From positions 62,001-126,000 of the forward strand of contig NZ_SLXH01000001.1 in assembly GCF_004341365.1 (NCBI RefSeq): DNA of 64,000 nucleotides, given 5' to 3'. The notes beneath the pieces were generated by a model. It was not told the DNA's origin. It saw nothing but the letters and a program-made list of their open reading frames with translations, and ran no database searches. This stretch comes from Simplicispira metamorpha (GTDB lineage Bacteria; Pseudomonadota; Gammaproteobacteria; Burkholderiales; Burkholderiaceae_C). Numbering within the stretch: the first letter of the stretch is position 1; the number at the start of each line of letters is the position of its first letter. This document shows, piece by piece, positions 35,348-54,299 of this stretch. Position numbers and translations under genes: made by a program.

Positions 35348-36604
35348 ATGAACGAGATTCTGACCTTCTGGGCGCAGTGGCTGCGGCCCTCCGCCGGGCT
35401 GCCCACGGTGCAATGGTCTTTGCTGCTGGCCGTGGCCACCATCGCGGGCTACCTGTTCCAGCGCCACATCGGCTTGCCCAAGGTGGTGGGCTATTCACTG
35501 GTGGGCACACTGGCCGGTCTGGCAGGCTTCAGCGGCGCGGTCTGGCCGCTGCAAGGCATAGGGCTGTTTCTGCTGGAGCTGGGCATTTCGCTGGTGCTGT
35601 TCGAGTGCGGGGCGCGCATTCCGTTGCGCTGGTTCCGGCACAACCCCATGGTGCTGGTGCAAAGCATTGCCGAGTCGGCCCTGACTTTCTTTGCCGTGTA
35701 CTGGGCACTGCTGTGGCTGCAAGTGCCCGAGCGCGCTGCGGGCCCGCTGGCCGTGGTGGCGCTGGCAGCATCGCCTGCCGTGCTTACCCGTGTGGTCAAC
35801 GACACGCGCGCCGCCGGCCCGGTGACCGAGCGCGCCATCGTGCTGGCCACGCTGTCCACGCTGTACGCCCTGACGCTGGGCAGTGCGCGCGCTGAACTGA
35901 TCAACCGGCCTTCCATCACGTTCATGGACACGGTGTACCCGGTGATGGTGGTACTAGGCGTGTCGGTGGTGGTGGCAGCACTGCTGGCGCTGGTGCTGCG
36001 CATGGCGCTGCGCTTTATGAGCCCCACCAGCGAGAACACCTCCATCTTGCTGCTGGCGCTGATTGCCGCAGGCACTGCCGTGGCTGCGCACATGGGTGGC
36101 TCGGCGCCGCTGGCGGCACTGCTGGGCGGCATGCTGCTCAAGCAGCTCAACCCGCGCCCCTGGGCCTGGCCGCGCCAGTTGGGCACGGCCTCGTCGTTGC
36201 TGACCATGCTGATGTTCGTGCTGGTCTCCACCGTAGCGGCGCAGGCCGACTGGAGCGGCCCGGTCGCTGGCGTAGTGCTGGCGCTGATTGGCGTGCGCCT
36301 GCTGGCCAAGGTGGTGGGCGTGGGCCTGGGCAACGTGGGCAGCGGCGCCAGCTGGCGCCAGGCGCTGTGGGTGGGCGCCGCCATGACGCCCATGTCGTCC
36401 ATTGCCCTGTTGATTGCCTCGCAGTTCGTCATGGCCTCGCCTTCCACGGGCCACCTGATTGCGCAAATCGCGCTGCCCGCCATCTTGCTGATGGAGGTGC
36501 TGGGCGCAGTGATTGCCACCGTGGCCATTTACCGCGCGGGCGAGAGTTCCAAACCCTGGGCGCCACTGACCCGCAGCGGCGCAGGAGACAACCGTGAGTC
36601 TTGA
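35348..36604 (+). CDS. CPA2-type cation:proton antiporter (KefB/Na+/H+ exchanger family)
   Basis: 418 residues with about 12 hydrophobic segments from residue 22 to the C-terminus and no TrkA-N/RCK domain, so the regulatory part of KefB/C is absent. The family pattern shows in [30 protein letters not shown] and [19 protein letters not shown]. It would exchange K+ or Na+ for H+ across the inner membrane; ion choice is not readable. It overlaps the next gene by 11 bases. Confidence 0.88.
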
Positions 36605-37718
36605 AGCCTTTACCCAATCTGAACCGCTGACGCTGGGCGTCGAGCTGGAGTTGCAGCTCGTCAACACCCACGACTACGACCTGGCGCCCTACGCCGAAGA
36701 CATGCTGCGCCTGATGCTCAAAACGCCGCTGCCGGGCAGCGTGGTGCCCGAGATGACCAACAGCATGATCGAAATATCGACCGGCATCTGCCACAGCAGC
36801 AGCGAGGTGCTGGGCCAGCTGAGCCAGATCCGCGACGCGCTGGTCAAAAGCGCCGACAAGCTCAACATCGCCGTGGTGGGCGGTGGCACGCACCCGTTCC
36901 AGCAATGGCACGAGCGGCGCATTTACGACAAGCCACGCTTTCAGGAGCTGTCGCAGCTGTATGGCTACCTCTCCAAACAGTTCACCATCTTTGGCCAGCA
37001 CGTTCACATCGGCTGTCCCGATGCCGATGCGGCGCTGCTCATGCTGCACCGCATGAGCCGCTACATCCCGCACTTCATCGCGCTGTCGGCCTCCAGCCCC
37101 TACGTGCAGGGGCAGGACACGGCGTTTGACTCGGCGCGGCTCAATTCGGTGTTTGCGTTTCCGCTGTCGGGGCGTGCGCCCTGCGTGCTGACCTGGGCCG
37201 AGTTTGAGCAGTACTTCAACAAAATGACCCGCACGGGCGTGGTCAAAAGCATGAAGGACTTTTACTGGGACATCCGGCCCAAGCCCGAGTTCGGCACCAT
37301 CGAAATCCGTGTGTTCGACACGCCCCTGACCATTGAGCGCGCCGCTGCACTGGCCGGTTTTGTGCAATCGCTGGGAGCCTGGTTTCTGGCCGAGCAACCC
37401 TTCACGCCGCAAGAGGACGACTACCTGGTCTATACCTACAACCGCTTCCAGGCCTGCCGCTTTGGCATGGATGCGGTGTACGTAGACCCGGCCAGTGGTG
37501 AGCACATGCCGCTGCGCGAGCACATCATGCGCACCATCGACCAGATTGCCGGCCACGCGGCAGCGCACGGCGCCTCGGGCGCGCTGCACCTGCTGCGCAG
37601 CGAAGCCCACGCGGGCCAAAACGACGCACGCTGGCTGCGCGAGCGCCAGCGCGAAGAGCAATTGCTGGCCGAGGTCAGCCGCCAGGCAGCGCAGCGCTTT
37701 CGCGGCACAGGCGCTTGA
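36594..37718 (+). CDS. YbdK-type carboxylate-amine ligase (glutamate-cysteine ligase family 2)
   Basis: 374 residues starting at GTG with AGGAG upstream, inside the end of the antiporter gene. GCS2 landmarks: [10 protein letters not shown] at the start (metal-binding glutamates), [29 protein letters not shown] and the [16 protein letters not shown] block. YbdK shows weak gamma-glutamylcysteine ligase activity in vitro and its natural role is unsettled. The overlap with a cation antiporter fits the link between thiols and K+ efflux seen in Kef systems, but that is inference. Confidence 0.93.
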
Positions 37719-37897
37719 ACCGATGCAGCCAGCACAAGCCGTGTGGTCTGTGCTGGCAGGCGCGCAAATACCGCTGGGCCTGTACCGCGCTCGCATGAAT
37801 AATCGGCGCCCATGCCTGCCTTCCTCCTCACCCATTGCACCCCGCCCACGGCCTTGAGCCATCCGGTGGCTGTGGCGCACCGCGCCCCTGGGTCAGC

Positions 37898-40309
37898 ATG
37901 AGGCGGCTGCTATGGTGGTTCATGGCGGTGCTGGCCTGCGTGGCGGCGGGCTGTATTGCCGCCAGCGCCTACCTGACATTTGCCACCCTGCGCAGTGCGC
38001 AGCAAGAAGCCTTTGACGCCCGCTTCGCTCTGGCGGCACAGCGCGCCGCCACCGCCGCAGAAAGGGCGCTGGCGCTGGGCGTGGCGCTGACCGATCAGCC
38101 CCCGTTGCAGGCGCTGTTGGAGCGCGAAGCCACGCTGGAGCCCGCCATCGTCGCCTTTGGCATCGCCAGCGCCAGCGGCCAGCGCCTGCTGGGCCACACC
38201 CGCCCGCCCGACGGTACCCGCGCCACTACCTTGCTGGAGCGCCCCGTGCGCAACGATCTGGGCCAGACCGTGGCACGGGTGCAGCTGCGCTACGACACCT
38301 CGGCCCTGGTCAGTGCAGAGCAGCAACTGCAACAAGCAGTCCAGGCAGCCGCCTGGCCACCGCTGCTGGCGGTGTGCGCTGCGGCGCTGCTGCTGGGCGT
38401 GGCTCTGTCGCAGCGGCTGACGTCGCAATCGCACCGTGCTCCCTCTGGGGGAGTGGTGCCTGCGGGGCATCTGGGGCTGGCGCGCTGGCCGGGCGGCCTG
38501 CGCGCGCAGCTCACGGCCTTGGCCGCACTGGCGCTGTGCCTGGGCCTGCTGTGGCTGGGCTGGGGCGCACACCGCGCGGGCCAGGCGCTGATACAGCCGG
38601 TGCAGCTGGCCAAGGCCGCTGCCATCGCTCGTTCCAGCGCCAGTCTGGTCGAACACGCACTGGCCGTGGGCATTCCGCTGGACGCCCTGGTCGGGCTGGA
38701 CACCCACACCAGCGCCCTGCGCCGCGACAACCCCGAAGTGGCCGACCTGGCCCTGCTGGCGACCGACGGGCGCGCACTGCACCGCCGCAGCGCAGGTGCG
38801 GCCAGCCACGCAGCCGAGGCCAGTGCGGCCAGCACCACTGCGCCTGCCGCCCGCGCACCAGTAGTGCATGCAGGCACCCACTTGGCCGATGTGGTGGTGG
38901 TGCTAGACCCCGGTGTGCTGGCGCGCAAGCTGCAAACCACGCTGCTGGACATGGCTTTTCTGGGGGCGGTGAGCCTGTTGGTGGCGCTGGAGCTGCTGGC
39001 ACTGGCACTGGGCTCACGCGGCGCCCGTGCGCTGGCCGCCACCGAGGCGCGCCAGCAACGGCTGGCCCACCCACAAGCGCAGCACGCGCCCTGGCGCAGC
39101 ACCAGTGCCGCAGCGGTGCGCCCGGCGCTGTTCTTGTTCATGCTGTCCGAAGAACTCACGCGCCCTTTCCTGCCAGGCTGGGCCCGGCAACTGGCACCCC
39201 AGACCTGGGGGGTGTCCGCAGAGCTGCTGGCGGGCCTGCCGCTGGTACTGTTTCTGGCGGTAGTGGCGCTGCTGCAATGGCCGCTGGCAGGCTGGTCCGA
39301 GCGCCATGGCAGGCGCGCTGGCTTTTTGCTGGGTGCGCTGCTCAGTGCAGCCGGTCTGGCGCTGGCAGCCTGGTCGGCGGGGTATGGCAGCTTTCTGGCG
39401 GCGCGGGGCCTCAGTGCGGTGGGGTTTGCGCTGGTGTTTGTGTCCGGGCAGGGCGTGGTGATTGATGGCTCAGGGGCCAGCGACCGGGCGCGCAGCCTGG
39501 CGCAGTTTGTGCGTGCCATTTTGGTGGCCGGACTGTGCGGCCCGCCACTGGGCGGGTTGATTGCCGACCGCTGGGGCGTGCCCAGTGCGTTTGCGGCCTG
39601 TAGCGTGTTGGCGCTGCTGGCCGCCAGCGTCGCCTGGCTGCAACTGCCACCCGAACGCCCCACCGCCGCCCGCGCTGCGCCCCACCCTGGCACTGCCGCC
39701 CCCGGTCTGTGGGCCAACGCACTGCGCCAACCTGGGCTGCTGGCACTGCTGCTGGGCTGCGCCCTGCCCGCCAAGCTGCTGCTGGCAGCGCTGTGTTTTT
39801 ACCTGCTGCCGGTGTACCTGCAAGACAGCGGCCAGGGCAGCGCCATGATCGGCCGCCTGCAAACCATTTACCCACTGACCATGGTGTTGCTGGTGCCGCT
39901 GGCTGCGCGCCTGGCCGACCGCTGGGGCCAACGCAGTGCTTTTGTGCTGGCCGGTGGCCTGCTGGCGGGGTGCAGCGCCATACTGGCCTGGCCTGCCGGG
40001 GCATCTCCCACTGGGCTGGCGCTGGTACTGCTGGGCCTGGGGCTGGGGCAGTCGCTGTCGATTGCGCCGCAGTCGGCTCTGGTGGCAGACTTTGCCAAGG
40101 GTGCCCCGGCAGGCCACGGGGCGGGCATTCTGGGCCTGTTCCGTCTGGTAGAGCGTGGCGGCAGCGCACTGGGCCCGGCCACGGGCGCGCTGCTGCTGCC
40201 CCTGCTGGGCTTTGGCCCGGCGCTGGCCACCATTGGCCTGGGCGTGGTGGGTGCCAGCTTGGCCTATGGCTGGCACCTGCGCCGCCCAGGCCACCCCAAC
40301 CGCGCGTAA
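37898..40309 (+). CDS. MFS transporter fused to two periplasmic sensor modules
   Basis: 803 residues. Sensor module 1: TM about 3-28, periplasmic 29-152, TM 153-172. Module 2: TM 203-222, periplasmic 223-345, TM 350-372. Then an MFS unit from about 405 to the end with some 12 segments; motif-A-like G-W-S-E-R-H-G-R-R and later A-R-L-A-D-R-W-G-Q-R are visible. Module 1 resembles the stand-alone sensor at 43298 (both have an A-E-x(4-5)-A-x-G start and N-D-L-G-Q), and module 2 resembles that at 44049 (V-G-I-P-L-D/A). Two sensors on an MFS carrier is an architecture I do not know. First gene of a seven-gene operon with a SpoIIE phosphatase; a transceptor role is inferred. ATG chosen at the first hydrophobic segment. 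Confidence 0.85.
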   Translation: MRRLLWWFMAVLACVAAGCIAASAYLTFATLRSAQQEAFDARFALAAQRAATAAERALALGVALTDQPPLQALLEREATLEPAIVAFGIASASGQRLLGHTRPPDGTRATTLLERPVRNDLGQTVARVQLRYDTSALVSAEQQLQQAVQAAAWPPLLAVCAAALLLGVALSQRLTSQSHRAPSGGVVPAGHLGLARWPGGLRAQLTALAALALCLGLLWLGWGAHRAGQALIQPVQLAKAAAIARSSASLVEHALAVGIPLDALVGLDTHTSALRRDNPEVADLALLATDGRALHRRSAGAASHAAEASAASTTAPAARAPVVHAGTHLADVVVVLDPGVLARKLQTTLLDMAFLGAVSLLVALELLALALGSRGARALAATEARQQRLAHPQAQHAPWRSTSAAAVRPALFLFMLSEELTRPFLPGWARQLAPQTWGVSAELLAGLPLVLFLAVVALLQWPLAGWSERHGRRAGFLLGALLSAAGLALAAWSAGYGSFLAARGLSAVGFALVFVSGQGVVIDGSGASDRARSLAQFVRAILVAGLCGPPLGGLIADRWGVPSAFAACSVLALLAASVAWLQLPPERPTAARAAPHPGTAAPGLWANALRQPGLLALLLGCALPAKLLLAALCFYLLPVYLQDSGQGSAMIGRLQTIYPLTMVLLVPLAARLADRWGQRSAFVLAGGLLAGCSAILAWPAGASPTGLALVLLGLGLGQSLSIAPQSALVADFAKGAPAGHGAGILGLFRLVERGGSALGPATGALLLPLLGFGPALATIGLGVVGASLAYGWHLRRPGHPNRA

Positions 40310-40336
40310 CCACCCTGCCCACACCTTGCACACACC

Positions 40337-41416
40337 ATGACTGTTCGCCGCCACTTTCTCTCCCATGGCCTGCGCCATGCCGCAGGGCTGTCGTTGCTGC
40401 CGCTGCTGCCACCGGCCTGGAGCGCTGGCACCACGCCCACACCCCGGCTGCGGCACCCCACGGGCCGACCGTTCCGCATCCTGATGCTCACGTTCCGGGG
40501 CGAAACGGATGTGGATCGCGGCTTTCGCGCCTACCTGGCCGATGCCGGGCTGGATGCCCAGTTCACCGTGCGCGATGTGCAGCAAGACGCGGGCCGCGTG
40601 CCCGGAATCCTGCGTGACACGGCCCCATGGCAGCCTGACCTGATTTACGCCTGGGGCACGCCGATCACGCTGGCCGTGGTGGGCCCGCACGATGCGGCCA
40701 GCCAGAGCGGTTTTGTCCGTGACATCCCGGTGGTGTTTGCGCTGGTGGCGGCGCCGCTGCAATCGCGCATCGTGGCGCAGCTCGACGCCCCCGGGCGCAA
40801 TGTGACCGGGGCAGTGCACGTGGTGCCCACCGATGTGCAACTGCGGGCCATGCAGTCGTACCGCCCCTTCCAGAAGCTGGGCGTGCTCTACAACGCCGCC
40901 GAGCCCAACTCGCGCGCCATCGTCGCGCAGGCGCGGGAGTTCTGCCAGCGCAGCGGCGCCCAGCTGCTGGAGCGCACCTTCCGCACCAACGCCACAGGCG
41001 CCCCGGTGGCCGATGGCGTCGAAGACCTGGTGGCACAGCTGCACGCCGCCGGTGCCCAGTGGCTGTACCTGCTGCCCGACACCTTTCTGGGCAGCTTGTA
41101 CGAGCGCATTGCCCCCACGGCACTGAAGTTGCAACTGCCCTCGTTTGGCGCTGCCGAGCTGGCCGTGCGCTCGGGCGGGGCGCTGGTGGGGCTGGTCAGC
41201 CGCTATTACTCGGTGGGCCAGTTGGCGGGCGCCAAGGCGCTGGACATTCTGGTGGCGGGCAAATCCCCGGCCCAGGTGCCGGTGGAAACGCTCAAGCGCT
41301 TCTCGCTGCTGGTGAACATGCAGGTGGCGCGCAGCCTGCGCCTGTACCCCCCCATCGACATGCTGAATTACGCCGAAGTCATCGCCATCGGCCCCACCGA
41401 GGCCCGCCCGTCATGA
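40337..41416 (+). CDS. Periplasmic ABC-type binding protein (ABC_sub_bind family)
   Basis: 359 residues. The leader has twin arginines (V-R-R-H-F-L) before a hydrophobic stretch and a cleavage-like W-S-A-G, so Tat export is possible. The mature part shows the two-lobed family 1-like periplasmic binding fold: R-I-L-M-L-T-F-R-G-E, Q-P-D-L-I-Y-A-W-G-T-P, V-V-F-A-L-V, G-V-L-Y-N, G-A-Q-W-L-Y-L-L-P-D and G-A-L-V-G-L-V-S-R-Y-Y. Related proteins bind aromatic amino acids or serve as ligand carriers for sensors. No ABC permease or ATPase is nearby. It starts 27 bases after the sensor-MFS gene and its stop overlaps the next ATG (ATGA). Confidence 0.86.
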   Translation: MTVRRHFLSHGLRHAAGLSLLPLLPPAWSAGTTPTPRLRHPTGRPFRILMLTFRGETDVDRGFRAYLADAGLDAQFTVRDVQQDAGRVPGILRDTAPWQPDLIYAWGTPITLAVVGPHDAASQSGFVRDIPVVFALVAAPLQSRIVAQLDAPGRNVTGAVHVVPTDVQLRAMQSYRPFQKLGVLYNAAEPNSRAIVAQAREFCQRSGAQLLERTFRTNATGAPVADGVEDLVAQLHAAGAQWLYLLPDTFLGSLYERIAPTALKLQLPSFGAAELAVRSGGALVGLVSRYYSVGQLAGAKALDILVAGKSPAQVPVETLKRFSLLVNMQVARSLRLYPPIDMLNYAEVIAIGPTEARPS

Positions 41417-42114
41417 GCACGCCCATCTCCCCATCCACCTCCCCTGCCGCGCCCACCCCATCCACCCTGGCGTGGCGCCTGCTGCAACCGGCCGATCTGG
41501 GCACCATGGAAGTGCTGCACCGCCTCAGCCTGGCGGGCATGGCGGCGCACACCGTCAAGGCCGAGTCGCGTGATTTTCTGGCCAGCCTGCTGCAAGGCCG
41601 GGGCCAGGTGATCGGCGCCTGGGCGGGTCAGGCGCTGGTGGCCTACGGCGTGCTGCAACACGACCTGCTGCCCGAAGACGACCCGCGCCCTCACCTGGGC
41701 CTGTCCGCAGACCGGCCTGCGGCCAAGCTGGCAGGTGCGGCCGTGGCCCCCGACTGGCGCGGCCAGCACCTGCAACGCACCCTGATTGCCAAGCGTATGG
41801 CACAGGCACAGCCCGGCGCCGTGCTGTTTGCCACCGCTGCCCCCGACAACACCGCCAGCTGGCACAACCTGCTGGCCTGCGGCTTTGCCGTGCGCGCGCT
41901 GGAATACCGCTACGGCGGCTTTGCCCGCTACCTGCTGGCGCACGACCCGGCTGCGCCATCTGCGGGCCCGGCGCTGGCAGCGTCTGGCCTGGACGTACCC
42001 TCCAGCGACCTGCCCCGCCAGCAAGCCCTGTTGCACGCAGGCTGGCGCGGCGTGGCCCCCGGCAGCACCGCAGGCAGCCTGCACCTGACACCGCCACCCG
42101 GAGGTGCCGCATGA
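41413..42114 (+). CDS. GNAT-like acetyltransferase
   Basis: 233 residues. A GNAT-like core runs from about residue 22 to 160: W-R-L-L-Q-P-A-D-L-G-T-M (strand 1), V-I-G-A-W-A-G-Q-A-L-V-A-Y-G-V (strands 2-3), A-A-V-A-P-D-W-R-G-Q-H-L-Q-R-T-L-I (the acetyl-CoA Q/R-x-x-G-x-G/A-like loop, here R-G-Q-H-L) and N-T-A-S-W-H-N-L-L-A-C-G-F near the end. The pyrophosphate loop departs from the R-G-x-G-x-G form, so activity is plausible but not certain. The substrate is unknown; an amino acid or amine would suit its racemase-like neighbour. ATGA overlaps at both ends make it a coupled member of the operon. Confidence 0.7.
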   Translation: MSTPISPSTSPAAPTPSTLAWRLLQPADLGTMEVLHRLSLAGMAAHTVKAESRDFLASLLQGRGQVIGAWAGQALVAYGVLQHDLLPEDDPRPHLGLSADRPAAKLAGAAVAPDWRGQHLQRTLIAKRMAQAQPGAVLFATAAPDNTASWHNLLACGFAVRALEYRYGGFARYLLAHDPAAPSAGPALAASGLDVPSSDLPRQQALLHAGWRGVAPGSTAGSLHLTPPPGGAA

Positions 42115-43301
42115 ACACCGCTGCCGCCCACGACCGCCCCCGCCTGCACGTGGACTTGCACGCCCTGGCGCACAACTGGCAGGCGGTGCGCAGCACCTTT
42201 CGGGGCCAGCGCATCGGCGCCGTGGTGAAGAACGATGCCTACGGCCTGGGCCTGGCCACGGTGGCACCGCTGCTGTGGCACCTGGGCTGCCGCGACTTCT
42301 GGGTGGCACACACCAGCGAAGCCCTGGCCTTGCGCGCCCTGCTGCCTGCGCATGCCGCGCGCATTCTGGTGCTGCACGGCCTGGGCGGGCTGGCCCCCCA
42401 AGACTTTGCCGCCCACGCCCTGGTGCCTGTGCTGGCAGGCCCCCATGAGCTGCCCGCTCTGCACGGCCACACCCACCGCCACGGCACACCGCTGCCCGTG
42501 GCCCTGCACCTGGACACCGGCCTGACCCGCCTGGGCTTTGGCGCCGCCGACCTGCCCGCACTGCGCCCCGGCAGTGCGCTCTGGGCCGACGCCCAGCCAC
42601 AAACCTGGGTCAGCCACCTGGGCCGCTTCAGCGACCCCACCGCGCCCGAATGCCTGCGCCAGCGCGCCGACTTCACTGCCTGGACGGCGCAACTGCCCCG
42701 GGCCGAACGCAGCATTGCCACCTCATCGAGCGTGTTTGCCGACCCGGCCTGGCACTTCGACCACGCCCGGGTGGGCAGCGCACTGTTCGGCGTGCAAACC
42801 ACCCCTGGCCACCCCCAGCCCCTGCGCAGCGTGGCCAGCCTGCACGCGCCGGTACTGCGCGTGGCCGACGTGCCCGCTGGCACGGAAGTGGGCTATGCAG
42901 GCAGCTACCGCACCCTGCGCGCCAGCCGCATCGCCACCGTGGCCATTGGCTACGGCGATGGTCTGCCCTTTGGCCTGGTCAATCGGGGGGTGCTGTACCT
43001 GTGCGGGCAGGCCGCGCCCATCGTGGGCGGCGTGGCCATGGGCATGCTGGGGCTGGACGTCAGCGCCTTTGCGCCAGGGCAGGTGCAGCCTGGCATGTGG
43101 GCGCAGGTGTACGGCCCCCAGCAGCCCCTGGAGCAGCTGGCCGCCACGGCAGGCGTGGCGCCCAACACCTTGCTGGTAACTACCGCCAGCCTGGCCACGC
43201 GGCACTACAGCGACAGCACCCACGGCGGTGACTGCTGCGATAGCGGCAACCAGCGCCTGTCACCCCCCACAGCGCAGGCACCCCAGGAGCCACAGCCATG
43301 A
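42111..43301 (+). CDS. Alanine-racemase-like PLP protein with altered active-site motifs
   Basis: 396 residues, fold-type III barrel plus C-terminal beta domain. The PLP lysine is Lys40 (V-V-K-N-D-A-Y-G-L-G) and the catalytic-type tyrosine lies in V-G-Y-A-G-S-Y-R-T (Tyr262). Two conserved sites differ: the usual H-L-K-x-D-T-G lysine is replaced in L-H-L-D-T-G-L-T-R (His133), and the usual G-R-V-x-M-D reads G-G-V-A-M-G (306-311), losing Arg and Asp. No signal peptide. It may racemise another amino acid, act slowly, or be a ligand-binding relic. A tail of about 30 residues rich in Ser, Cys and Pro follows the domain. It sits mid-operon between the GNAT gene and the sensors, overlapping both by ATGA. 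Confidence 0.82.
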   Translation: MNTAAAHDRPRLHVDLHALAHNWQAVRSTFRGQRIGAVVKNDAYGLGLATVAPLLWHLGCRDFWVAHTSEALALRALLPAHAARILVLHGLGGLAPQDFAAHALVPVLAGPHELPALHGHTHRHGTPLPVALHLDTGLTRLGFGAADLPALRPGSALWADAQPQTWVSHLGRFSDPTAPECLRQRADFTAWTAQLPRAERSIATSSSVFADPAWHFDHARVGSALFGVQTTPGHPQPLRSVASLHAPVLRVADVPAGTEVGYAGSYRTLRASRIATVAIGYGDGLPFGLVNRGVLYLCGQAAPIVGGVAMGMLGLDVSAFAPGQVQPGMWAQVYGPQQPLEQLAATAGVAPNTLLVTTASLATRHYSDSTHGGDCCDSGNQRLSPPTAQAPQEPQP

Positions 43302-44059
43302 ACCCGCGCCACCGTCTGCTGGCCATCGTGCTGGCTTGCGTGCTGGCGGTGCTGGCCAGCACCCAGGCCCTGGCACATTGGGCCGCCCGCACTGCCCACG
43401 ACGCCATGGTGCAGCAGCGCGACCACTATCTGCTGCACAGCCTGCGCACCGCCGCAGAAAACTACCTGGCCATCGGCCTGAACCTGGAGCAAATGGAAGC
43501 GCTGCAAACCCTGATCGAGCGTGAACGGGCCAGCTTTGACCAGGTGCTGGCCATCGATGTGTTCGCCGCCAGCGGCACCCTGCTCTACAGCACCGACCCC
43601 AACGCCCTGGGCAGCCAGGTGCCACCGCACTGGCGCCAGGGGCTGGAGCACAGCACCCCGTGGCACACCGACGGCCCGGCGCAGCGCCAGCTGGGCGTGC
43701 GCTTTGACAACGACCTGGGCCAGGCGGCGGGCGGCATTGTGCTGACCATCTCCACCGCCACGCCGCCCCTGACGCTGGCGCAATGGAAAGCGCACGGCCA
43801 ACAGGCCCTGGCGTTGCTGGCCGCCGCCGCCCTGGCCACCTTGGTCGCCTGGGCTGGGGTGGCGCTAGGTATGCGCCGCCTGATGGCGCCCTATGTGCGC
43901 GTGGCCCGCATCCTGCAAGGCCAGCCGCCAGCGCCAGCACAACCACCGGCCACGCCACTGGAGCAGGCCGCCCACCACACCCACGCCAGCTGGGCCGCCG
44001 CCCGCCAACGCGCACAACACCGCCTGCACCAGCTACAGGAGCTTGACGATGCCGACTGA
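43298..44059 (+). CDS. Stand-alone two-TM periplasmic sensor (like module 1 of the MFS fusion)
   Basis: 253 residues. TM1 is about 7-27, the periplasmic domain about 28-165, TM2 about 168-190, and the cytoplasmic tail about 60 residues with no HAMP or output domain. The periplasmic part has the pattern A-E-N-Y-L-A-I-G-L-N-L-E-Q-M-E-A-L and R-F-D-N-D-L-G-Q, matching A-L-G-V-A-L and R-N-D-L-G-Q in the first module of the sensor-MFS. The cytoplasmic tail ends in a helix rich in Gln, Ala and His, possibly a coiled coil. Starts inside the stop of the racemase-like gene (ATGA) and overlaps the next gene by 11 bases. Ligand and partner unknown; the downstream SpoIIE phosphatase is the obvious candidate. 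Confidence 0.75.
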   Translation: MNPRHRLLAIVLACVLAVLASTQALAHWAARTAHDAMVQQRDHYLLHSLRTAAENYLAIGLNLEQMEALQTLIERERASFDQVLAIDVFAASGTLLYSTDPNALGSQVPPHWRQGLEHSTPWHTDGPAQRQLGVRFDNDLGQAAGGIVLTISTATPPLTLAQWKAHGQQALALLAAAALATLVAWAGVALGMRRLMAPYVRVARILQGQPPAPAQPPATPLEQAAHHTHASWAAARQRAQHRLHQLQELDDAD

Positions 44060-44858
44060 CTCCATCGCCACAGTGGCGCCGGTTCTGCAACCGCCACCCC
44101 AGCTCGCCCGCAGCCTGGGCTTGCTGGCCTTGTGCCTGACGCTGGCGATTGGCACGGCCAGCGCCCTGTGGTCGCTGCACCAACTGCGCACCACCACCGA
44201 ACGCGAAGCCCGCACCGACGCCCAGGCCATGGCCCAGTCGGTGGCGCACACGCTGGCCCAGCAAATCGGCCGGGCGGTGCGCGTGGGCATTCCGCTGGCC
44301 GATATTCCCGGCGTACCCGCCTACCTGCAACGCACGCTGGAGCAGGCGCCGGGCCTGGCCTTTATCGCGCTGCACACCGAAGACGACACCCTGCTGCACA
44401 CCACCAGCACCTCGCGCAGTGCCAACGACCTGGTGCGCGCGCCCATCCAGGTGCAGGGGCGCACCGCAGGCACCGTGGTGGTGGGCACCGCCGCCGCAGC
44501 GCTGGCCCAGGGACTGGCCTGGGCACAGGCCCTGTGCGCGCTGGTGGTACTGGGCCTGGGCCTGCTGGGCGGCTGGCTGGCCGCCCGGGGGCCGGGCCAG
44601 CGCCTGGAGCACCAGCGCCAGCAGTTGCAAGCCGGGCTGCACGGCACGCCCCCGCCCGAACCGCCCCCCGGTGCCAGCGACGACGGCGTGGCCCAGGCAC
44701 TGCAAGCCCTGGCCGACGGACACCAGCAAGCGCAAGCACACGATGCCGCCGTGGCCGCCTACGCCCAAGAGCTGCTGGCAGTGGACTTTGACCAGCGCCT
44801 GCAAGCGCACATTGCCCGCATCGTGCCCGACCACCCCCACCCCGGCAAAGGCGCCTGA
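44049..44858 (+). CDS. Stand-alone two-TM periplasmic sensor (like module 2 of the MFS fusion)
   Basis: 269 residues. TM1 about 20-42, periplasmic about 43-150, TM2 about 158-180, then a cytoplasmic tail of about 90 residues rich in Gln, Ala and Pro without a recognised domain. V-R-V-G-I-P-L-A-D-I-P-G-V in the periplasmic part parallels A-V-G-I-P-L-D-A-L-V-G-L in module 2 of the sensor-MFS. The ATG lies 11 bases inside the previous gene and the stop shares one base with the next start (TGATG), so it is tightly coupled to the phosphatase. With the previous gene it reproduces the two sensor halves of the fusion protein as separate chains. Confidence 0.75.
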   Translation: MPTDSIATVAPVLQPPPQLARSLGLLALCLTLAIGTASALWSLHQLRTTTEREARTDAQAMAQSVAHTLAQQIGRAVRVGIPLADIPGVPAYLQRTLEQAPGLAFIALHTEDDTLLHTTSTSRSANDLVRAPIQVQGRTAGTVVVGTAAAALAQGLAWAQALCALVVLGLGLLGGWLAARGPGQRLEHQRQQLQAGLHGTPPPEPPPGASDDGVAQALQALADGHQQAQAHDAAVAAYAQELLAVDFDQRLQAHIARIVPDHPHPGKGA

Positions 44859-46909
44859 TGCTGCTGCGCACCCGTATCACCCTCATCGTCGCCCTGGGCC
44901 TGGTGCTCACCGTGCTGGGCCTGGGCAGCGCCGGGCTGCTGCGCGAGCAGCTGCTGCAACAGCGCCTGGCCAGCACCGCCCTGGCAGCGCAAACCTCGCT
45001 GTGGGGCGAAATGCTGGCCGCCGAAGACCGCCTGCTCGACCAGGGCCTGGACCAGCTGCTGGCCGACACACGCTTTCTGCACGCCGTCCGCCTGGGCGAC
45101 CTGGCTGCGCTGGAACAAGCCCTGCAAGCCCTGAACCTGCTGCCCGGCCCCGCCCAGCCGCTGGCCCTGGTGGCGCTGGTCAACGCCCGGCAAGACCCCA
45201 TCGCCCTGGGCCTGGCGCCGCCGCGCCCACTGCTCGACAGCGTCAGCCTCGACCGCGCGGCCACCGGCGAATCCGTGGGCGGGCTGCGCCTGGGCGCGGG
45301 CAGCGTGCCGCTGGTGTTGTCGGCGCGCGCGCTGCCCGGCCAGACCGAACCCGTGGTGCTGGTGCTGGGGCGCCATGCCCGGCACGCCCTGGAACGCTTT
45401 GCCGAACGCACCGCCACCACCGCCAGCGTGCTGGACTTGCGCGGCGCACTCAGCGCCTCCACCGATGACGCCCTGTGGCGCAGCGCCCAGGTGCAGGTGT
45501 CGCCGCGCACGGCGCACCACGGTCAGCACGAGGTCGGGGCGCGCACCTACACCCTCAACAGCACACCCTTGAGCGACATTGCGGGCCGCAGCGCAGGCGT
45601 TCTGGTCACTTTGGGCGACCAGACCGAAGAGGCCGATGCCAGCGCTTTTCTGGGCCGCCTGGCCCTGGGCGGCACACTGGCGCTGGTGCTGGCCGTGCTG
45701 CTGGGCCTGAACTTTTACCTGGGTCGCAGTCTGCGCCCGCTGGGCAAAGCCATTGCCGCCTTGCAGGCGCTGGCGCGCGGCGACGCCAGCGTGCGCCTGC
45801 AACACGCGGGCGACGACGAAATCGGCCGCATCGCCCAGGCCGTGGTGGCCTTCCGGCGCAACGCCCAGGAGCTGGCCGCCAGCCGCACCCTGCGCGAGCG
45901 CGTGCGCAGGCGCCAGGAGCGCCTGATCCGCCACCGACTGCAACACCTGGCCGACGCCACCGACATGACCAGCCGCGAAGAAATGCTGCGCCTGCTGAAC
46001 GCCACCGGCCCGCAGCCCACCGGCGCGCCCCACGGCGACGAAGAGCAGCTGCGCCAGCTGGCCGCCGTGATGGCCGAACTCACCGAACGCATCATCCAGC
46101 AGCACCAAAGCCTGTCGTCGATGATCGTGGAGCTGCGCGAAGCCCTGGTCACCAAAACCCGGCTGGCGGGCCTGGAGCAAGAGCTGCAAATTGCCGCCCA
46201 GGTGCAGCTGAGCATCCTGCCACGCCATCTGCCCGCCGACCCGCGCGTGCAGCTGCACTGCCACATCACCCCCGCGCGCGAGGTGGGCGGCGACTTCTAC
46301 GACTACTTTGAAATCGACAGGGAGCACTTTGGTTTTGTCATGGCTGATGTCTCGGGCAAAGGCGTGCCAGCAGCGCTGTTCATGGCCATCACGCGCACGC
46401 TGCTCAAGGCCACGGCGCTGTTTGTGACCTCGCCCACGTCGTGCATGCGCAAGCTCAACGACCTGCTGGCCGTGGAAAACGACCAGATGATGTTCGTCAC
46501 CATCTTCTACGGCGTGCTGCACCTGCCCAGCGGGCGTGTGGCGTATGTCAACGCAGGCCACAACCCGCCGTATCTGCGCCGTGCCGATGGCACCGTCGAG
46601 CCTGTGGCGCGCACCGGCGGCATGGCCGTGGCCGTGAGCGACGGCTTTGTCTACCGCGAAGGCAGCGTCCAACTGGCCCCGGGCGACCTGCTGTTCCTGT
46701 ATACCGACGGCATCACCGAAGCCTTTGACATCGACGCCCAGGAGTACGGCGACCAGCGCCTCGAAGCCGTGCTGCGCGGCCTGGACGGCCAGGGCCTGGA
46801 GCCCGCCGACGTGTGTACCGCCGTGCTGGCCGATGTGCGCCAGTTCGAGCGCGGCGCACCCCAGGCCGACGACATCACCTGCATGGCGCTGCGCTGGCAG
46901 GGCGCCTGA
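44858..46909 (+). CDS. Membrane HAMP-SpoIIE (PP2C-type) serine phosphatase
   Basis: 683 residues. TM1 about 7-28, periplasmic sensor about 29-262, TM2 about 264-288, HAMP about 289-345, helical linker with coiled-coil character about 345-450, SpoIIE domain about 450-683. Metal-binding aspartates are present: Asp479 (V-G-G-D-F-Y-D), Asp497 (D-V-S-G-K-G), Asp617 (Y-T-D-G) and Asp671/672 (D-D-I-T). Such phosphatases remove phosphate from STAS antagonists; Bordetella BtrU is a betaproteobacterial parallel with HAMP. The likely substrate is the STAS protein encoded at 53967. It is the last gene of the operon and is followed after nine bases by a repeat copy. Confidence 0.93.
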   Translation: MLLRTRITLIVALGLVLTVLGLGSAGLLREQLLQQRLASTALAAQTSLWGEMLAAEDRLLDQGLDQLLADTRFLHAVRLGDLAALEQALQALNLLPGPAQPLALVALVNARQDPIALGLAPPRPLLDSVSLDRAATGESVGGLRLGAGSVPLVLSARALPGQTEPVVLVLGRHARHALERFAERTATTASVLDLRGALSASTDDALWRSAQVQVSPRTAHHGQHEVGARTYTLNSTPLSDIAGRSAGVLVTLGDQTEEADASAFLGRLALGGTLALVLAVLLGLNFYLGRSLRPLGKAIAALQALARGDASVRLQHAGDDEIGRIAQAVVAFRRNAQELAASRTLRERVRRRQERLIRHRLQHLADATDMTSREEMLRLLNATGPQPTGAPHGDEEQLRQLAAVMAELTERIIQQHQSLSSMIVELREALVTKTRLAGLEQELQIAAQVQLSILPRHLPADPRVQLHCHITPAREVGGDFYDYFEIDREHFGFVMADVSGKGVPAALFMAITRTLLKATALFVTSPTSCMRKLNDLLAVENDQMMFVTIFYGVLHLPSGRVAYVNAGHNPPYLRRADGTVEPVARTGGMAVAVSDGFVYREGSVQLAPGDLLFLYTDGITEAFDIDAQEYGDQRLEAVLRGLDGQGLEPADVCTAVLADVRQFERGAPQADDITCMALRWQGA

Positions 46910-46918
46910 AACAGCGCA

Positions 46919-46985
46919 CTGCAAAAATGTGAGCTGCTCGCGCTTACTGCGCAAGCTCTGGAGGCTGTTTTGACTATCAAAAACG
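46919..46985 (+). repeat. Interspersed repeat, copy 9
   Basis: Nine bases after the phosphatase stop: TGAGCTGCTCGCGC ... CAAGCTCTGGAGGCTGTTTT, ending GACTATCAAAA, which is the reverse complement of the usual TATCAA head. It has the same orientation as the upstream gene. Confidence 0.8.
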
Positions 46986-47113
46986 GATCTCGCACGGAAG
47001 GCGGGCCGTGGCACTTTGTGGGTTGACCCGCGCAGCCCGCTGCTGCACGATGCCTGCGACTTGGCCCTGGCCAGCGCCCGCCCACCGTTCACCGTCACCC
47101 CCCCTTCTTGCTT

Positions 47114-50806: not shown

Positions 50807-50814
50807 GGGCAGGC

Positions 50815-51588
50815 TCAGAGCACGGGCATGAGCTGCATGCCACCGGGCTCGGTGGCCCAGAGGTCGCCGGTGTCCAGATCAAACCACCAGCCGTGCAGCA
50901 CCAGCGTGCCCGCCTCGACGCGCTCGCGCACCCAGGGGTACGAGAGCAGGTTCTTCAGCGACCCGGCAATGGCGGCGCGCTCGACCAGGTGGGCGTTCTC
51001 GCGCAGGCGCTGCAACGACGCTTGCAGCGGCTGGCCGTGCTCGTCTTTTTCTGAGAGGTACAGGCGGCTGGCGTCCAGCGCCATAGACACCCAGCCGCCG
51101 ATGAAGTCGCGGTCAGGCCACTGGCCGCCCGCTGCGCCCAGCATGGCCTTGATGCCGCCGCAGTGCGCGTGGCCCAGCACGATGATGTGGTCTACCTTCA
51201 GGTCGCGCACCGCGTACTCAATGGCGGCACCGGCGCCGTCGTAGTGGCGGGTGGTGTCGTAGGGCGGCACCAGATTGGCCACGTTGCGCACGACAAACAG
51301 CTGGCCCGGCTCGGCGTCCGACAGCAAGGTGGGATCGACCCGGGAGTCGCTGCAAGAAATCAGCAAAGCGGGTGGCGACTGGCCCTGCTCGACCAGACCG
51401 CGCATCAGCGTGGAGTTTTCTTCGTAAAACCGGGTACGAAAGCGCCGGATGCCCTCCAGCAAGTGGCTGATGTCGCGGCATGGCGTTGCCTGGCCCTGCG
51501 CCTGATGGTTTTGCTCCAAGGTAGTCCCCGAAAAGTTGAGTGGTTGAACGCACAAGCCCTGCCCATGCAGGCCCTGCACGGGTGGCAT
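50815..51588 (-). CDS. Beta-class carbonic anhydrase
   Basis: 257 residues from the ATG at 51586-51588; the frame extends upstream but homology does not. Zn ligands and dyad: C-S-D-S-R-V-D-P (Cys, Asp, Arg) and G-H-A-H-C-G-G (His, Cys), all intact, with V-R-N-V-A-N-L-V-P between them. Interconverts CO2 and bicarbonate. About 50 residues at the N-terminus precede the domain, without a convincing signal peptide. It stands between the RsbW-type kinase and an NCS2 permease on the same strand, so inorganic carbon may be an input or need of this signalling cluster. That link is inference. Confidence 0.95.
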   Translation of the reverse strand: MPPVQGLHGQGLCVQPLNFSGTTLEQNHQAQGQATPCRDISHLLEGIRRFRTRFYEENSTLMRGLVEQGQSPPALLISCSDSRVDPTLLSDAEPGQLFVVRNVANLVPPYDTTRHYDGAGAAIEYAVRDLKVDHIIVLGHAHCGGIKAMLGAAGGQWPDRDFIGGWVSMALDASRLYLSEKDEHGQPLQASLQRLRENAHLVERAAIAGSLKNLLSYPWVRERVEAGTLVLHGWWFDLDTGDLWATEPGGMQLMPVL

Positions 51589-51632
51589 TTTGCCTACGTT
51601 GGAAGGCAGCGCCGCGCCCGGGCCTGGCGCGC

Positions 51633-52094
51633 TCAGGCGGCCCACGCTGCACCCAGCAGCAGCACGTTGCGGTCGCCCTGGCGCTGGTAATGCAGCGTGT
51701 GCAGGTAGTGGCGCATCAGGCGCAGGCCGTGGCCGCCAACACGCGCATCGTCCAGTGAAAGGGCCAGCTCGGGCGGCTCCTGGGCCGTGGGATCGAAAGC
51801 GGCGCTATCGTCCTCCATGCGCAGCGCCACGCCATAGGGCGTGCGGCCACACTCCAGGCGCAGGCCCAGCTGCGGCTGCCCCGGCGGCGCCTGGGCATAA
51901 GAGACGACATTGGTGAGGGCCTCATCGGCGCACAGCGTCAGGGCAAACAGCGTGCGCGCTGGCCAGCCGTCGCGCTCGGCCAGGGCCTCCAGCCATGCCA
52001 GCGCCTGGGCCACGCCCTGCACCGAGGGCTCGGGCACCAGCACATCGGGCGGGGCAAGGTACACAGAGCCATCATTGGGGGCAGTGGCGTTCAT
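51633..52094 (-). CDS. RsbW/SpoIIAB-type serine kinase (anti-sigma-factor-like ATPase)
   Basis: 153 residues from the ATG at 52092-52094 (GAGGAC upstream). A GHKL ATPase with an intact site: N box D-E-A-L-T-N (Glu58, Asn62), G1-like M-E-D-D-S-A-A-F-D-P (95-96), G2 G-G-H-G-L (120-124). Members of this family phosphorylate a STAS antagonist on serine and sequester a partner such as a sigma factor when the antagonist is phosphorylated (B. subtilis RsbW; Bordetella BtrW). The STAS partner is most likely the 110-residue protein at 53967 and the opposing phosphatase the SpoIIE protein at 44858. It is seven bases after the upstream NCS2 gene. No target sigma or anti-sigma gene is visible. Confidence 0.92.
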   Translation of the reverse strand: MNATAPNDGSVYLAPPDVLVPEPSVQGVAQALAWLEALAERDGWPARTLFALTLCADEALTNVVSYAQAPPGQPQLGLRLECGRTPYGVALRMEDDSAAFDPTAQEPPELALSLDDARVGGHGLRLMRHYLHTLHYQRQGDRNVLLLGAAWAA

Positions 52095-52101
52095 GGTGTC
52101 C

Positions 52102-53868
52102 TCAATGTTCAAAATGCAGGCGCAGCGCAGCAGGCCCGGCACCACCGTCCGCCACCTCCACCCGGTCGGCCAGGTGGCGCAGCAACAGGCCCGAGACGTT
52201 CAGCAACGCAGCGTCCAGCGCGGCGTCATCGGCGTCCAGCAGCGAGGCGTGTGGCGCCGCCGTGCCGTGGGCGGCAGCAGAGGTCAGCGCCAGGGCGGGG
52301 CCGCTGTGCAGCAGCTCAATGTCGAGGTTGAACTCGTCAAAGCTGCCCCGGATGGCCACCAGCGAACGCCCGCCTGCGGCGGCGATGGCCTCGGCGCCCT
52401 CCAGCGTGGCCAGGGCCGCGCGCTGCACCACCGCACGGCGCGCCCCCCAGGCGCCACCACGGCCTTCGACAAAGCCGGTGATATCGGCATGCAGGGTGCT
52501 GCTGGCCATGTCCAGGCGTTGCTCGGCGCGCTGCGCCGTGCCCAGGCGAAACAGCAGGTTGAGCGCAATCACCAGCAAACCCGCCACCAGAAAACCGCTG
52601 CCCAGCAAGAACCGCAAACCCTCGGGCGCTGCCTGCACCAAGGGCGGCATAAGCATGGTGGCCAGACCGGCACTGATGGACAGGCCCACCGCAAAAATGC
52701 CCCGGCTGTCCATGGCCCGCGAGGCGATCAGCTCCATGCCCGAGACGATCAGAAAGCCCGCCGCATACAGCTCCACCGCCCCCAAGACCGGCGTCGGGAT
52801 AAGCGTCAGGCCCAACGTAGCCTGGGGCATGAACGCCACCAGCGCCAGCATCGCTGCTGTGGCCAGGCCAATCACGCGGGCCGTGGAATGGGTGGCATGG
52901 GCCAGCGCGATATTGGCCGAACACACGCAAGAGGGAAAGCTGCCCAGCAGGCCGCAGGCCAGATCGCCCAGGCCATTGGCCTTGATGCCGCCACCCACGG
53001 CCTGCATGTTGGCGCGCTTCCAGTCGGCATCGTCCATTTTGTCCAGGATGATGACGCTGCCCAGCGTATCGAGCTGGCTGAGCACGGCGATGAGCGCAAT
53101 CGCCACCACCATGGCCGGGTCGATGCGAAACACGGGCGCTGCCACGCTGGGCAGGGCCAGCACGGGGGCGCTGCGCAGGGCATCGAGGCCCTCCAGCTGC
53201 CCTGTCAGCGCCGCCACGGCCACGCCAATGGCAATGCCCGCCATCAGCCCCAGCAGCCGGGTACGCCGCCCGCCCCACACCGACAGCGCAATGATGCAGC
53301 CCAGCGTGGACGCCGCAATGGCGGCACTGACCGGGTTGATGCGCCACTGCGCATCCACGCCCAGCGAATGGCGCACCGCCGACTCCACCAACCCCAGCCC
53401 GCCCATGCAAATGACCGTGCCGACCACAGCAGGAGGAAACAAGGCGCGCATGCGCGTCACCAGCGGGCCCACGGCCAGGGCGGCTGCGCCGTACACCAGC
53501 GTGGCCACCGCAATGCCCCCCGGGCCGTGCGCGGCCACCAGGGCGGCCACCAGCGTGATCATGAACGGATTGGGCATGTGTACCAGCAGCGCGCCGCTGC
53601 CCGTGCGCCCGCCCCAGGCCTGCAAGGCCGTACACAAGGCCATGCCCAGCAAAGTCATGGCCACCATGGACTGGGTGCCCTGCCGGTCCAGCCCCGCAAT
53701 CTGCGCCGTAGCCAGCACATAGGTGATGAAAGCCATGGCCGTGGCCGCGTGCTGCCCCGCCAGCACCAGCAGCGCAAACCGGGGCGGCCGGTCATCGGCG
53801 GCAAACAACAACTCCGGGGGGCGGCGGCGCACAGGCGACGGGGGCAGGCGGGGCAACAAAAGTGGCAT
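52102..53868 (-). CDS. Second NCS2-type permease with C-terminal degenerate RsbW-like domain
   Basis: 588 residues from the ATG at 53866-53868; an ATG at 53910 is possible and neither has a clear ribosome site. Membrane segments cover about 28-435. A G-Q-H in the first helix fits NCS2 proteins, but the eighth-helix region reads S-Q-L-D-T-L-G-S, with Asp where family members have Glu. Residues 443-588 are a soluble domain sharing W-G-A-R and F-D-E-F-N-L-D-I-E-L with the domain of the permease at 49085 (W-G-A-R, F-D-D-Y-V-F-T-L). No usable N box is seen. It is the first gene of the minus-strand operon (permease, kinase, carbonic anhydrase, permease) and diverges from the STAS gene across 98 bases. 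Confidence 0.78.
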   Translation of the reverse strand: MPLLLPRLPPSPVRRRPPELLFAADDRPPRFALLVLAGQHAATAMAFITYVLATAQIAGLDRQGTQSMVAMTLLGMALCTALQAWGGRTGSGALLVHMPNPFMITLVAALVAAHGPGGIAVATLVYGAAALAVGPLVTRMRALFPPAVVGTVICMGGLGLVESAVRHSLGVDAQWRINPVSAAIAASTLGCIIALSVWGGRRTRLLGLMAGIAIGVAVAALTGQLEGLDALRSAPVLALPSVAAPVFRIDPAMVVAIALIAVLSQLDTLGSVIILDKMDDADWKRANMQAVGGGIKANGLGDLACGLLGSFPSCVCSANIALAHATHSTARVIGLATAAMLALVAFMPQATLGLTLIPTPVLGAVELYAAGFLIVSGMELIASRAMDSRGIFAVGLSISAGLATMLMPPLVQAAPEGLRFLLGSGFLVAGLLVIALNLLFRLGTAQRAEQRLDMASSTLHADITGFVEGRGGAWGARRAVVQRAALATLEGAEAIAAAGGRSLVAIRGSFDEFNLDIELLHSGPALALTSAAAHGTAAPHASLLDADDAALDAALLNVSGLLLRHLADRVEVADGGAGPAALRLHFEH

Positions 53869-53966: not shown

Positions 53967-54299
53967 ATGACCATCGCCCTCGAATCCGCCGCCAACGCCC
54001 AGATTGTTGCCCTGCAAGGCCAGATCAACAGCGCCAATGCCGCCACCACCGAAGCAGAAGTTCTGGCCCTGATCGCCAGCGGACAAAAAAACCTGGTGAT
54101 CGACTTTGCTGCCCTGGACTACATCTCCAGCGCCGGTCTGCGCATGGTGCTGGTGGTGGCCAAGCGGCTCAAGCAAGAAGGCGGCAAGCTGGTGCTGTGC
54201 ACCATGCAGCCGCACATCCGCGAGGTGTTTGACATCAGCGGTTTTCTGGCCATCCTCAACGTCACCGCCACGCGCGCCGAGGCCCTGGCGCAGTTCTGA
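53967..54299 (+). CDS. STAS-domain anti-sigma factor antagonist (SpoIIAA/RsbV type)
   Basis: 110 residues, one STAS domain. L-D-Y-I-S-S-A-G-L-R places the phosphorylatable serine at 55, equivalent to Ser58 of SpoIIAA by alignment of the S-S-x-G-L loop; the I-D-F strand precedes it. When dephosphorylated it should bind the RsbW-type kinase at 51633; the SpoIIE phosphatase at 44858 would restore that state. Divergent from the kinase operon, so both could share control of the 98-base intergenic region. A possible alternative is an STAS adaptor for another output such as HsbA in Pseudomonas. Start at the only ATG that gives the complete first strand. Confidence 0.93.
   Translation: MTIALESAANAQIVALQGQINSANAATTEAEVLALIASGQKNLVIDFAALDYISSAGLRMVLVVAKRLKQEGGKLVLCTMQPHIREVFDISGFLAILNVTATRAEALAQF

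Follow-up and report, generated by a model that had tools for sequence, protein, structure and literature searches.

A conserved seven-gene operon of Simplicispira metamorpha: a probable variant of the Bordetella btr partner switch with putative periplasmic sensors

Partner switches of the RsbU/RsbV/RsbW and SpoIIE kinds normally control a wider target. The described system nearest to the locus reported here is the btr locus of Bordetella, whose genes have so far been studied as regulators of the type III secretion system (T3SS). Table 3 of PMC7498569 lists for it the STAS protein BtrV, the kinase BtrW, alr, the major facilitator superfamily (MFS) protein BtrO, the SpoIIE phosphatase BtrU, and the ATP-binding cassette (ABC) transporter BtrN, together with the gamma-glutamylcysteine synthetase BtrM, BtrA, and BtrS; the table gives the functions of alr, BtrO, BtrN, and BtrM as unknown. 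We have analyzed a 64 000-nucleotide stretch of the Simplicispira metamorpha genome (contig NZ_SLXH01000001.1, positions 62 001–126 000; hereafter the window), whose + strand carries at 37898–46909 an operon of seven open reading frames (ORFs), all in one direction (Table 1). The initial annotation knew of no described system with this gene set, a statement that stands in part: the btr locus already joins STAS protein, kinase, alr, MFS, SpoIIE, and ABC proteins, whereas the GNAT acetyltransferase and the two stand-alone sensors of the operon are absent from the btr table (PMC7498569). Judged by titles, the beginnings of abstracts, and term counts, the seven-gene set was not found in the literature outside the Bordetella btr papers, and its sensing half was not found described in the literature searched. 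Taken as a whole, the operon appears to be a btr-type partner switch in a new form. Our preferred reading, to which we assign a probability of roughly two in three, is that it encodes a periplasmic sensing complex driving a btr-type partner switch; the device is probably a more general one, with T3SS control among its outputs.

Table 1. Features of the window (ordered by coordinate) with the main profile, hydropathy, or profile-comparison support for each
Feature	Coordinates	Strand	Support
GCS2-family glutamate-cysteine ligase, directly upstream of the operon	36594..37718	+	Pfam GCS2 2.5e-58
Gene 1, MFS carrier with N-terminal transmembrane (TM)-periplasmic-TM segments N1 and N2; BtrO-like architecture	37898..40309	+	MFS_1 3.7e-36, residues 410-760
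Gene 2, periplasmic TrpX-like PF04392 binding protein	40337..41416	+	ABC_sub_bind 1.9e-22
Gene 3, GNAT acetyltransferase	41413..42114	+	Acetyltransf_1 1.8e-4, 22.2 bits vs cut-off 20.7
Gene 4, pyridoxal phosphate (PLP) racemase, alanine-racemase fold	42111..43301	+	Ala_racemase_N/C 1.3e-42, 4.2e-24
Gene 5, stand-alone sensor 1: two TM helices around a periplasmic, putatively Cache/PAS-like domain, then a helical tail	43298..44059	+	TM 7-25, 170-188
Gene 6, stand-alone sensor 2, family of carrier N2	44049..44858	+	hhalign N2 99.4, sensor 1 98.0
Gene 7, membrane HAMP-SpoIIE (PPM) serine phosphatase, BtrU-like catalytic domain	44858..46909	+	SpoIIE 4.3e-51, HAMP 1.5e-8
RsbW/BtrW-like HATPase	51633..52145	-	HATPase_c_2 3.1e-17
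STAS anti-sigma-factor-antagonist-like protein, BtrV-like	53967..54299	+	TIGR00377 75.1 bits vs cut-off 53.45

Recomputing the junctions from genes 1/2 to genes 6/7 gave +27, −4, −4, −4, −11, and −1 bases, which reproduces the single-direction operon of the initial annotation in its coordinates and strand, in its five overlaps, and in its one 27-base gap. Pfam and NCBIfam recognize an MFS carrier extended at its N-terminus by 400 residues, a PF04392 protein, a weakly matching GNAT protein, an alanine-racemase fold, and a HAMP-SpoIIE phosphatase; the stand-alone sensors (genes 5 and 6) match no family of either collection over cut-off. A consensus scan of 37400–47400 found no sigma-70-type promoter, an absence that means little in these organisms. 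Terminator-like sites in the same interval number 12 against a mean of 3.8 in shuffles; the seven on the + strand all fall inside gene 1, and the scan neither shows nor excludes a single transcript.

Searches with the phosphatase matched, at E ≤ 1e-60, 15 times among 299 family genomes; there were 7 matches at E ≤ 1e-40 in 26 genomes of the genus (full length in G000, which is the window genome, in G696 with two copies, and in G699), and 8 at E ≤ 1e-90 in 399 genomes of the order; at the level of the class (369 genomes) there were 4, full length only in the window's own genome, the other three covering the C-terminal part only. Eighteen genomes carry a full-length phosphatase (G000, G213, G283, G256, G117, G532, G640, G699, G696, G020, G018, G231, G023, G570, G188, G270, G210, and G466; hereafter the carriers), and those with partial matches were left out (G012, G047, G083 with its 6-kb contig, G338, G382, G686, G693, G698, and G705). 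Loci were compared by tblastn and gene calls on fetched stretches, and the absences given here hold for those stretches; the loci of G023, G466, G696, and G083 are cut short by contig ends or sit on small contigs.

All seven genes recur in the same order and direction (type A) in 8 of the 18 carriers, the window included (the first eight named above); these span three families, and their proteins are 27–76% identical to the window's. Among the eight type-A loci the −4 overlap is kept at junction 2/3 in seven, at 3/4 in all eight, and at 4/5 in six, the −11 overlap at 5/6 in six, and the −1 overlap at 6/7 in four, where the other loci have +5, +165, or +176 bases or, in one case, a fusion. The link to gene 1 is looser, with 1/2 gaps from −40 to +287 bases, and 2175 bases in G213, where an opposite-strand ORF sits between genes 1 and 2. 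That order, direction, and several of the overlaps all recur takes the arrangement beyond chance, and shows the seven genes to be a conserved, tightly packed unit. Co-occurrence in other genomes, whose absence the initial annotation had named as refuting its reading, is thereby found, and its further claim that the coupling implies a joint function draws support from the order and the recurring overlaps, which point to one coupled signalling operon that is conserved elsewhere. One type-A carrier, the draft genome G699, has its racemase and binding-protein genes each interrupted (L054:11152-14035, minus), where assembly error and decay are indistinguishable.

Gene by gene, a relative of the binding protein was seen in 17 of the 18 carriers, of the carrier protein, the GNAT protein, and sensor 1 in 16 each, and of the racemase in 8. 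A second order (type B) is present, whole or partial, in G020, G018, G231, G023, and G570; it starts with sensor 1 and a sensor 2-like protein that has additional TM helices, continues with the phosphatase, and ends with a reversed GNAT gene followed by the carrier and the binding protein. The type-B sensor 2-like proteins (L025:9392-11392, L026:9805-11694, and L028:6910-8796) have a long additional multi-helix membrane part; the only one of them that was scanned, from L025, matched no Pfam family over cut-off. In a substrate-binding-protein tree of 37 rows, eight type-A rows group together (97/99), L001 included and the interrupted G699 gene excluded, and the type-B and T3SS-embedded rows form another group (100/99) with G210 among them. 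A scan of genome contigs with the phosphatase returned four loci, two (L001 and L002) with full-length relatives and two (L003 and L004) with the catalytic part only; STAS and HATPase-like matches lie beside the latter type in L003. L001 and L002 are the two phosphatase copies of a Giesbergeria metagenome-assembled genome; in the L001 copy the GNAT and sensor 1 genes have no racemase gene between them, and a GCS2 gene leads directly to the binding-protein gene. On plasmids, there was no tblastn match to gene 1 at E ≤ 1e-20.

The btr sequence comparison was made through genome G433, and the identities that follow refer to G433, not to Bordetella's own sequence. Beside a T3SS, G433 has genes for STAS, HATPase, Alr, sensor-MFS, dCache-HAMP-SpoIIE, and PF04392 proteins, a 190-residue protein without a Pfam match, and an extracytoplasmic function (ECF) sigma factor, an order equal to that of the btr table minus BtrM. 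Identity between the window and G433 is highest in the switch proteins, at 59% for STAS (109 residues), 50% for the HATPase (135 residues), and 46% for the catalytic part of the phosphatase (243 residues), as compared to 30% for the carrier, 29% for the racemase, and 21% for the binding protein (224 residues). The G433 carrier segments match N1 and N2 profiles that were built without G433 (93 and 97, respectively), with unrelated controls below 1.

In the window, phosphatase, STAS protein, and kinase candidate all lie within 7.1 kb. The phosphatase has predicted TM helices at residues 7-25 and 268-286 and motifs at 477, 496, 616, and 670, which we take to form the metal site. The STAS protein at 53967 is the sole match in its genome at E ≤ 0.001, and its SSAGLR motif places serines at 54/55, likewise in G433; BtrV phosphorylation is given at S54 and S55 in PMC8076611. 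The HATPase is probably the serine kinase and partner of the STAS protein; its true start may fall within the ORF listed in Table 1. In G699 a protein 80% identical to the window STAS lies directly behind gene 7, and in G256 gene 7 is followed immediately by a HATPase relative on the opposite strand. Of the 18 carriers, 15 have STAS and/or an RsbW-type HATPase in the stretches fetched, and 11 have both; the STAS gene of G640 sits in a separate T3SS locus. The initial annotation had linked the operon to partner switching through this STAS protein, which its uniqueness in the genome and the linkage of STAS and HATPase genes to the conserved operon make probable.

The kinase and STAS genes belong to a block at 49085–54299 that also holds two xanthine/uracil-type permeases and a carbonic-anhydrase-like gene; one permease was profile-scanned and the other clusters with it, while the carbonic-anhydrase-like protein is named from sequence alone. 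An abhydrolase gene (by Pfam) also lies downstream of the operon. A comparable run of STAS, permease, HATPase, an unscanned gene, and permease stands ~7 kb from the phosphatase in G283, with parts of it in G256 and G696. We considered whether the xanthine/uracil permease at 52102–53952 ends in an RsbW-like domain, and rejected it at a profile comparison probability of 0.18. On the upstream side, the GCS2 ligase is a possible BtrM counterpart; among the loci compared, a relative was matched only in L001.

The sensing half is made up of repeated parts. Hydropathy gives each stand-alone sensor a single TM pair flanking a periplasmic stretch, and two such units precede the carrier in gene 1 (TM 4-22, 148-166, 205-223, and 353-371, then the carrier helices). 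By hhalign, N1 pairs with sensor 1 at a probability of 99.5 and N2 with sensor 2 at 99.4, and all four are mutually related at 97.7 or above, so that profile comparison shows sensors 1 and 2 and carrier segments N1 and N2 to be one family. An AlphaFold2 model of sensor 1, built from two sequences, has a mean predicted local distance difference test (pLDDT) score of 66.7 and a predicted template modeling (pTM) score of 0.44; with Foldseek it retrieves CitA, WalK, KinD, and other periplasmic PAS/Cache domains (E 3e-4 to 7e-4), and the model, of middling confidence, suggests that the family is Cache-like. No Pfam Cache match was obtained for the sensors, and the sensor 1 profile gave a single match to sequences of solved structure, at E 1.2. 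The N-terminus of the phosphatase has no clear relation to the sensor family (hhalign 6–86). Two other genomes do join the two: G640 encodes the sensor 2 counterpart and the phosphatase as one in-frame fusion (98.9), and in G210 a sensor of the same family is so fused, nearest to N2 (97.7), then sensor 2 (94.1) and sensor 1 (93.4).

The start of gene 1 at 37898 is supported by relatives in G213 and G283, whose alignments begin at residue 1; in NCBIfam the gene comes nearest to drug-efflux families, without reaching the cut-off of any, and a single-sequence structure model was useless (mean pLDDT 42.8). Gene 2 begins with RR-x-F-L, presumably a twin-arginine translocation (Tat)-like motif, and has relatives of solved structure in 3lkv, 6hni, and 3lft. 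As a TrpX tryptophan-binding protein it was rejected, with 87.3 bits against an NCBIfam cut-off of 390, and at so low a score the suggestion in the initial annotation that amino acids are sensed remains a guess. Neither an ABC permease nor an ATPase was matched among the seven operon proteins (Pfam and NCBIfam).

The racemase of gene 4 is a lineage of its own by sequence comparison, 45.5–67.5% identical to five type-A racemases as compared to 28% to the genome's other Alr and 29% to the G433 Alr; against the curated Alr equivalog TIGR00492 it scores 163.4 bits and does not reach the cut-off of 168. In 6/6 type-A racemases compared, K40, R220, and Y262 are conserved, which we take from alanine racemase to be the PLP lysine, the PLP arginine, and the catalytic tyrosine. 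In the same six, SMD has become [AS]MG and GYADGYP has become GY[GA][DH]GLP with loss of the second tyrosine, changes that presumably lie near the substrate entry. We infer that gene 4 encodes an active racemase with an altered substrate entry. According to PMC7828420, exposure of Bordetella pertussis to blood induces the btr-locus alr along with T3SS genes, as would suit a racemase that acts alongside the switch.

Put together, the simplest chain would run from ligand to binding protein, sensor pair, phosphatase, STAS protein, and kinase, its first and last steps resting on least. The binding protein would catch a small molecule and dock on a pair of sensors 1 and 2. One such pair is built into the MFS carrier, which may move the ligand or a ligand product, and so may report transport or clear the ligand; the second, free beside the phosphatase, would act on the phosphatase, a step suggested by the two genomes in which a same-family sensor and the phosphatase are fused. 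From there the HAMP domain and helical linker could relay the signal to the PPM dimer, in the way put forward for phosphatases of the RsbU type; PMC12143880 describes PPM phosphatases as controlled by dimeric coiled-coil or helical linkers, HAMP included. The phosphatase would strip phosphate from Ser54/55 of the STAS protein, and the free STAS protein would bind the RsbW-type kinase, which would release or change its target. The GNAT protein and racemase probably modify the intracellular ligand pool.

Several observations weigh against this reading. The match to btr is by parts and not by gene-for-gene orthology: although both are PF04392 proteins, the G433 binding protein is very divergent (an end branch of 8.14 in the tree), the G433 phosphatase carries a different sensor, dCache, and the G433 Alr belongs to another racemase lineage, at 43% identity to the window genome's other Alr as compared to 29% to the operon racemase. 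Two racemase lineages have therefore joined such loci. The Bordetella switch is also unlike a plain Rsb system, and its working is disputed; BtrU, BtrV, and BtrW are reported as all required, none of them a negative regulator (PMC7498569), and unphosphorylated BtrV as inhibiting secretion (PMC8076611). Within the carriers, the racemase is unseen in 10/18 and GNAT in 2/18, and L001 is without the carrier gene, from which it follows that the core can do without the chemistry genes. The window STAS and kinase genes stand ~5–7 kb from the operon on different strands; neither STAS nor HATPase was found in the fetched stretches of G213, G270, and G466; and HATPase identities are 24–32% in the type-B genomes G020, G018, G231, and G570.

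The link to T3SS can be counted. A T3SS secretin over cut-off is present in 8 of the 18 carriers, as compared to 18/150 family genomes and 18/300 order genomes, and in one of eight same-genus genomes without a full-length phosphatase match. With kinship ignored, Fisher p is ~0.014 within the family and 9e-6 overall (non-carrier counts 17/145 and 16/296, carriers having been removed as judged from labels and listings); the excess among carriers is suggestive. In G188 and G270 the set follows the secretin inside a T3SS gene cluster. Such figures would fit a relic, an operon that formerly regulated a Bsc-type T3SS since lost from the window genome, where no secretin over cut-off was found. We regard this as the least probable of the alternatives: the window ORFs are all intact and their overlaps recur across families, interrupted genes occur in just one type-A carrier (the draft G699), 10 of the 18 carriers, from six genera, have no secretin over cut-off (one of them, G696, being only 64% complete), and G256 has a T3SS yet keeps the operon ~1 Mb away. 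BtrS behaves similarly. Among 14 carriers tested, a relative at 58–67% identity is found in six, all six with a T3SS secretin over cut-off, while the best match is 33–36% in seven (34% in the window genome) and G532 has no match at E ≤ 1e-15. T3SS and BtrS are separable from the operon set. Since the whole set exists without a T3SS, T3SS control in loci of the Bordetella type is probably one output of a general device. As a separate observation, G338 and G382, 2.1–2.4 Mb and of another family (L052, L053, L159, and L160), have a SpoIIE phosphatase accompanied by a STAS gene, with a T3SS secretin ~29 kb away; if counted as carriers, they would strengthen the T3SS link.

Other outputs, or none, can be imagined for the same genes. 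STAS-type control of a diguanylate cyclase occurs in the SiaC/SiaD and HsbA/HsbD systems, and the free or phosphorylated STAS protein could act likewise here; in G117 a gene (L023:13624-14409, minus) that resembles GGDEF by eye, without a profile scan, overlaps the beginning of the sensor-MFS gene, and a STAS gene follows on its other side, on the opposite strand. That arrangement is confined to 1 of the 18 carriers, and gene 7 was rejected as a SiaA with 61.3 bits against a cut-off of 700, leaving an output through cyclic di-GMP improbable, if ahead of the relic. A self-made signal ranks above it and is likewise improbable: the racemase and GNAT protein would make an acetylated or D-form compound, the carrier would export it, and the binding protein and sensors would measure it in a quorum-like loop. 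Synthesis-, export-, and sensing-type genes do share one coupled operon, the racemase is a separate lineage with two changed active-site motifs, and gene 1 resembles efflux-type MFS proteins through its sub-threshold NCBIfam matches; the patchy occurrence of the racemase, unseen in 10 of the 18 carriers, speaks against it. The same patchiness bears on the last and least improbable alternative, still an unlikely one, of a metabolic or export operon for one compound, in which phosphatase and sensors govern that pathway alone with no wider regulon. Translational coupling of enzyme and transport genes to the sensors favors it, as do the different GNAT family in related loci (one scanned and four clustered) and the two racemase lineages, but racemase and GNAT drop out of carriers in which sensor 1 is mostly retained and the phosphatase is present by definition, and phosphatase–STAS–kinase sets are described as normally governing a wider target (PMC8256260).

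The sensing proteins also occur away from the phosphatase. A binding-protein profile found matches in 21/398 order genomes at E ≤ 1e-45, at 25 places, of which five are known carrier loci and the 20 others were read (L110-L129). These loci, from other Burkholderiales families, hold a triplet of sensor 1, sensor-MFS, and binding protein, with no match to the phosphatase in any of the 20 stretches. An MFS relative adjoins the binding protein in 20/20, and an N2-type segment precedes the MFS in all 18 that could be scored; the N2 profile included carriers later scored, and only the N1-versus-sensor 1 pattern is independent. Sensor 1 is encoded next door in 17 and forms part of the carrier protein in one (L127); it is unseen in two at contig edges. 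A related Ser/Thr kinase gene lies near 6/20 loci (two scanned, both dCache-HAMP), another Ser/Thr kinase gene near L120, and a gene of an adenylate-cyclase cluster near 5/20 (the one scanned encodes a dCache-HAMP adenylate cyclase); L123 is beside a type VI secretion system gene, the remaining loci have no recognized neighbor of these kinds, and a GNAT of another family stands beside sensor 1 in 4/20 (the one scanned is Acetyltransf_3). The front end looks wider than the seven-gene operon, with the nearby kinases and cyclases as putative outputs. A bolder and more tentative extension, which we put at rather less than even odds, is that of a modular front end, composed of a binding protein, a Cache-like sensor pair, and a carrier that is itself sensor-bearing (a transceptor), which plugs into differing Cache-HAMP outputs: the PPM/STAS switch here and in Bordetella-type T3SS loci, and adenylate cyclases or Ser/Thr kinases in further Burkholderiales families. 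Where GNAT and racemase are added, the loop may be closed, the cell producing, exporting, and sensing a signal of its own.

That a larger btr-like set with recurring overlaps occurs in genomes where no T3SS secretin over cut-off or no close BtrS was found suggests that the racemase, carrier, ABC, and ligase members of such loci are the sensing part, of which T3SS control is one application. The carriers with no secretin over cut-off are organisms in which the ligand and output could be sought apart from virulence, and a carrier with built-in sensors plus a binding protein would be an uncommon way to measure transport or substrate.

Among described systems, the TrpX-type binding proteins share family (PF04392) and overall sequence with gene 2, which falls far under the TrpX cut-off and has no ABC permease or ATPase among its operon partners. 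The SiaA-SiaB-SiaC-SiaD system of Pseudomonas has in common a membrane HAMP-PP2C phosphatase that acts on a small partner, for which the window instead has a canonical STAS protein over the TIGR00377 cut-off. With RsbU-RsbV-RsbW and SpoIIE-SpoIIAA-SpoIIAB the locus shares a SpoIIE-type phosphatase, a STAS protein with SSAGLR, and an HATPase_c_2 protein; it differs in using a binding protein, Cache-like sensors, and a carrier for sensing, and in having no sigma factor among the proteins read beside the operon. From the btr locus it differs by the added GNAT and two stand-alone sensors, by gene order and the sensor domain of the phosphatase, and by a racemase that is not a close orthologue of the one in G433 and a binding protein that is probably not one either; STAS protein, RsbW-type kinase, SpoIIE phosphatase, MFS, ABC protein, and alanine racemase are common to both loci, each time in one neighborhood.

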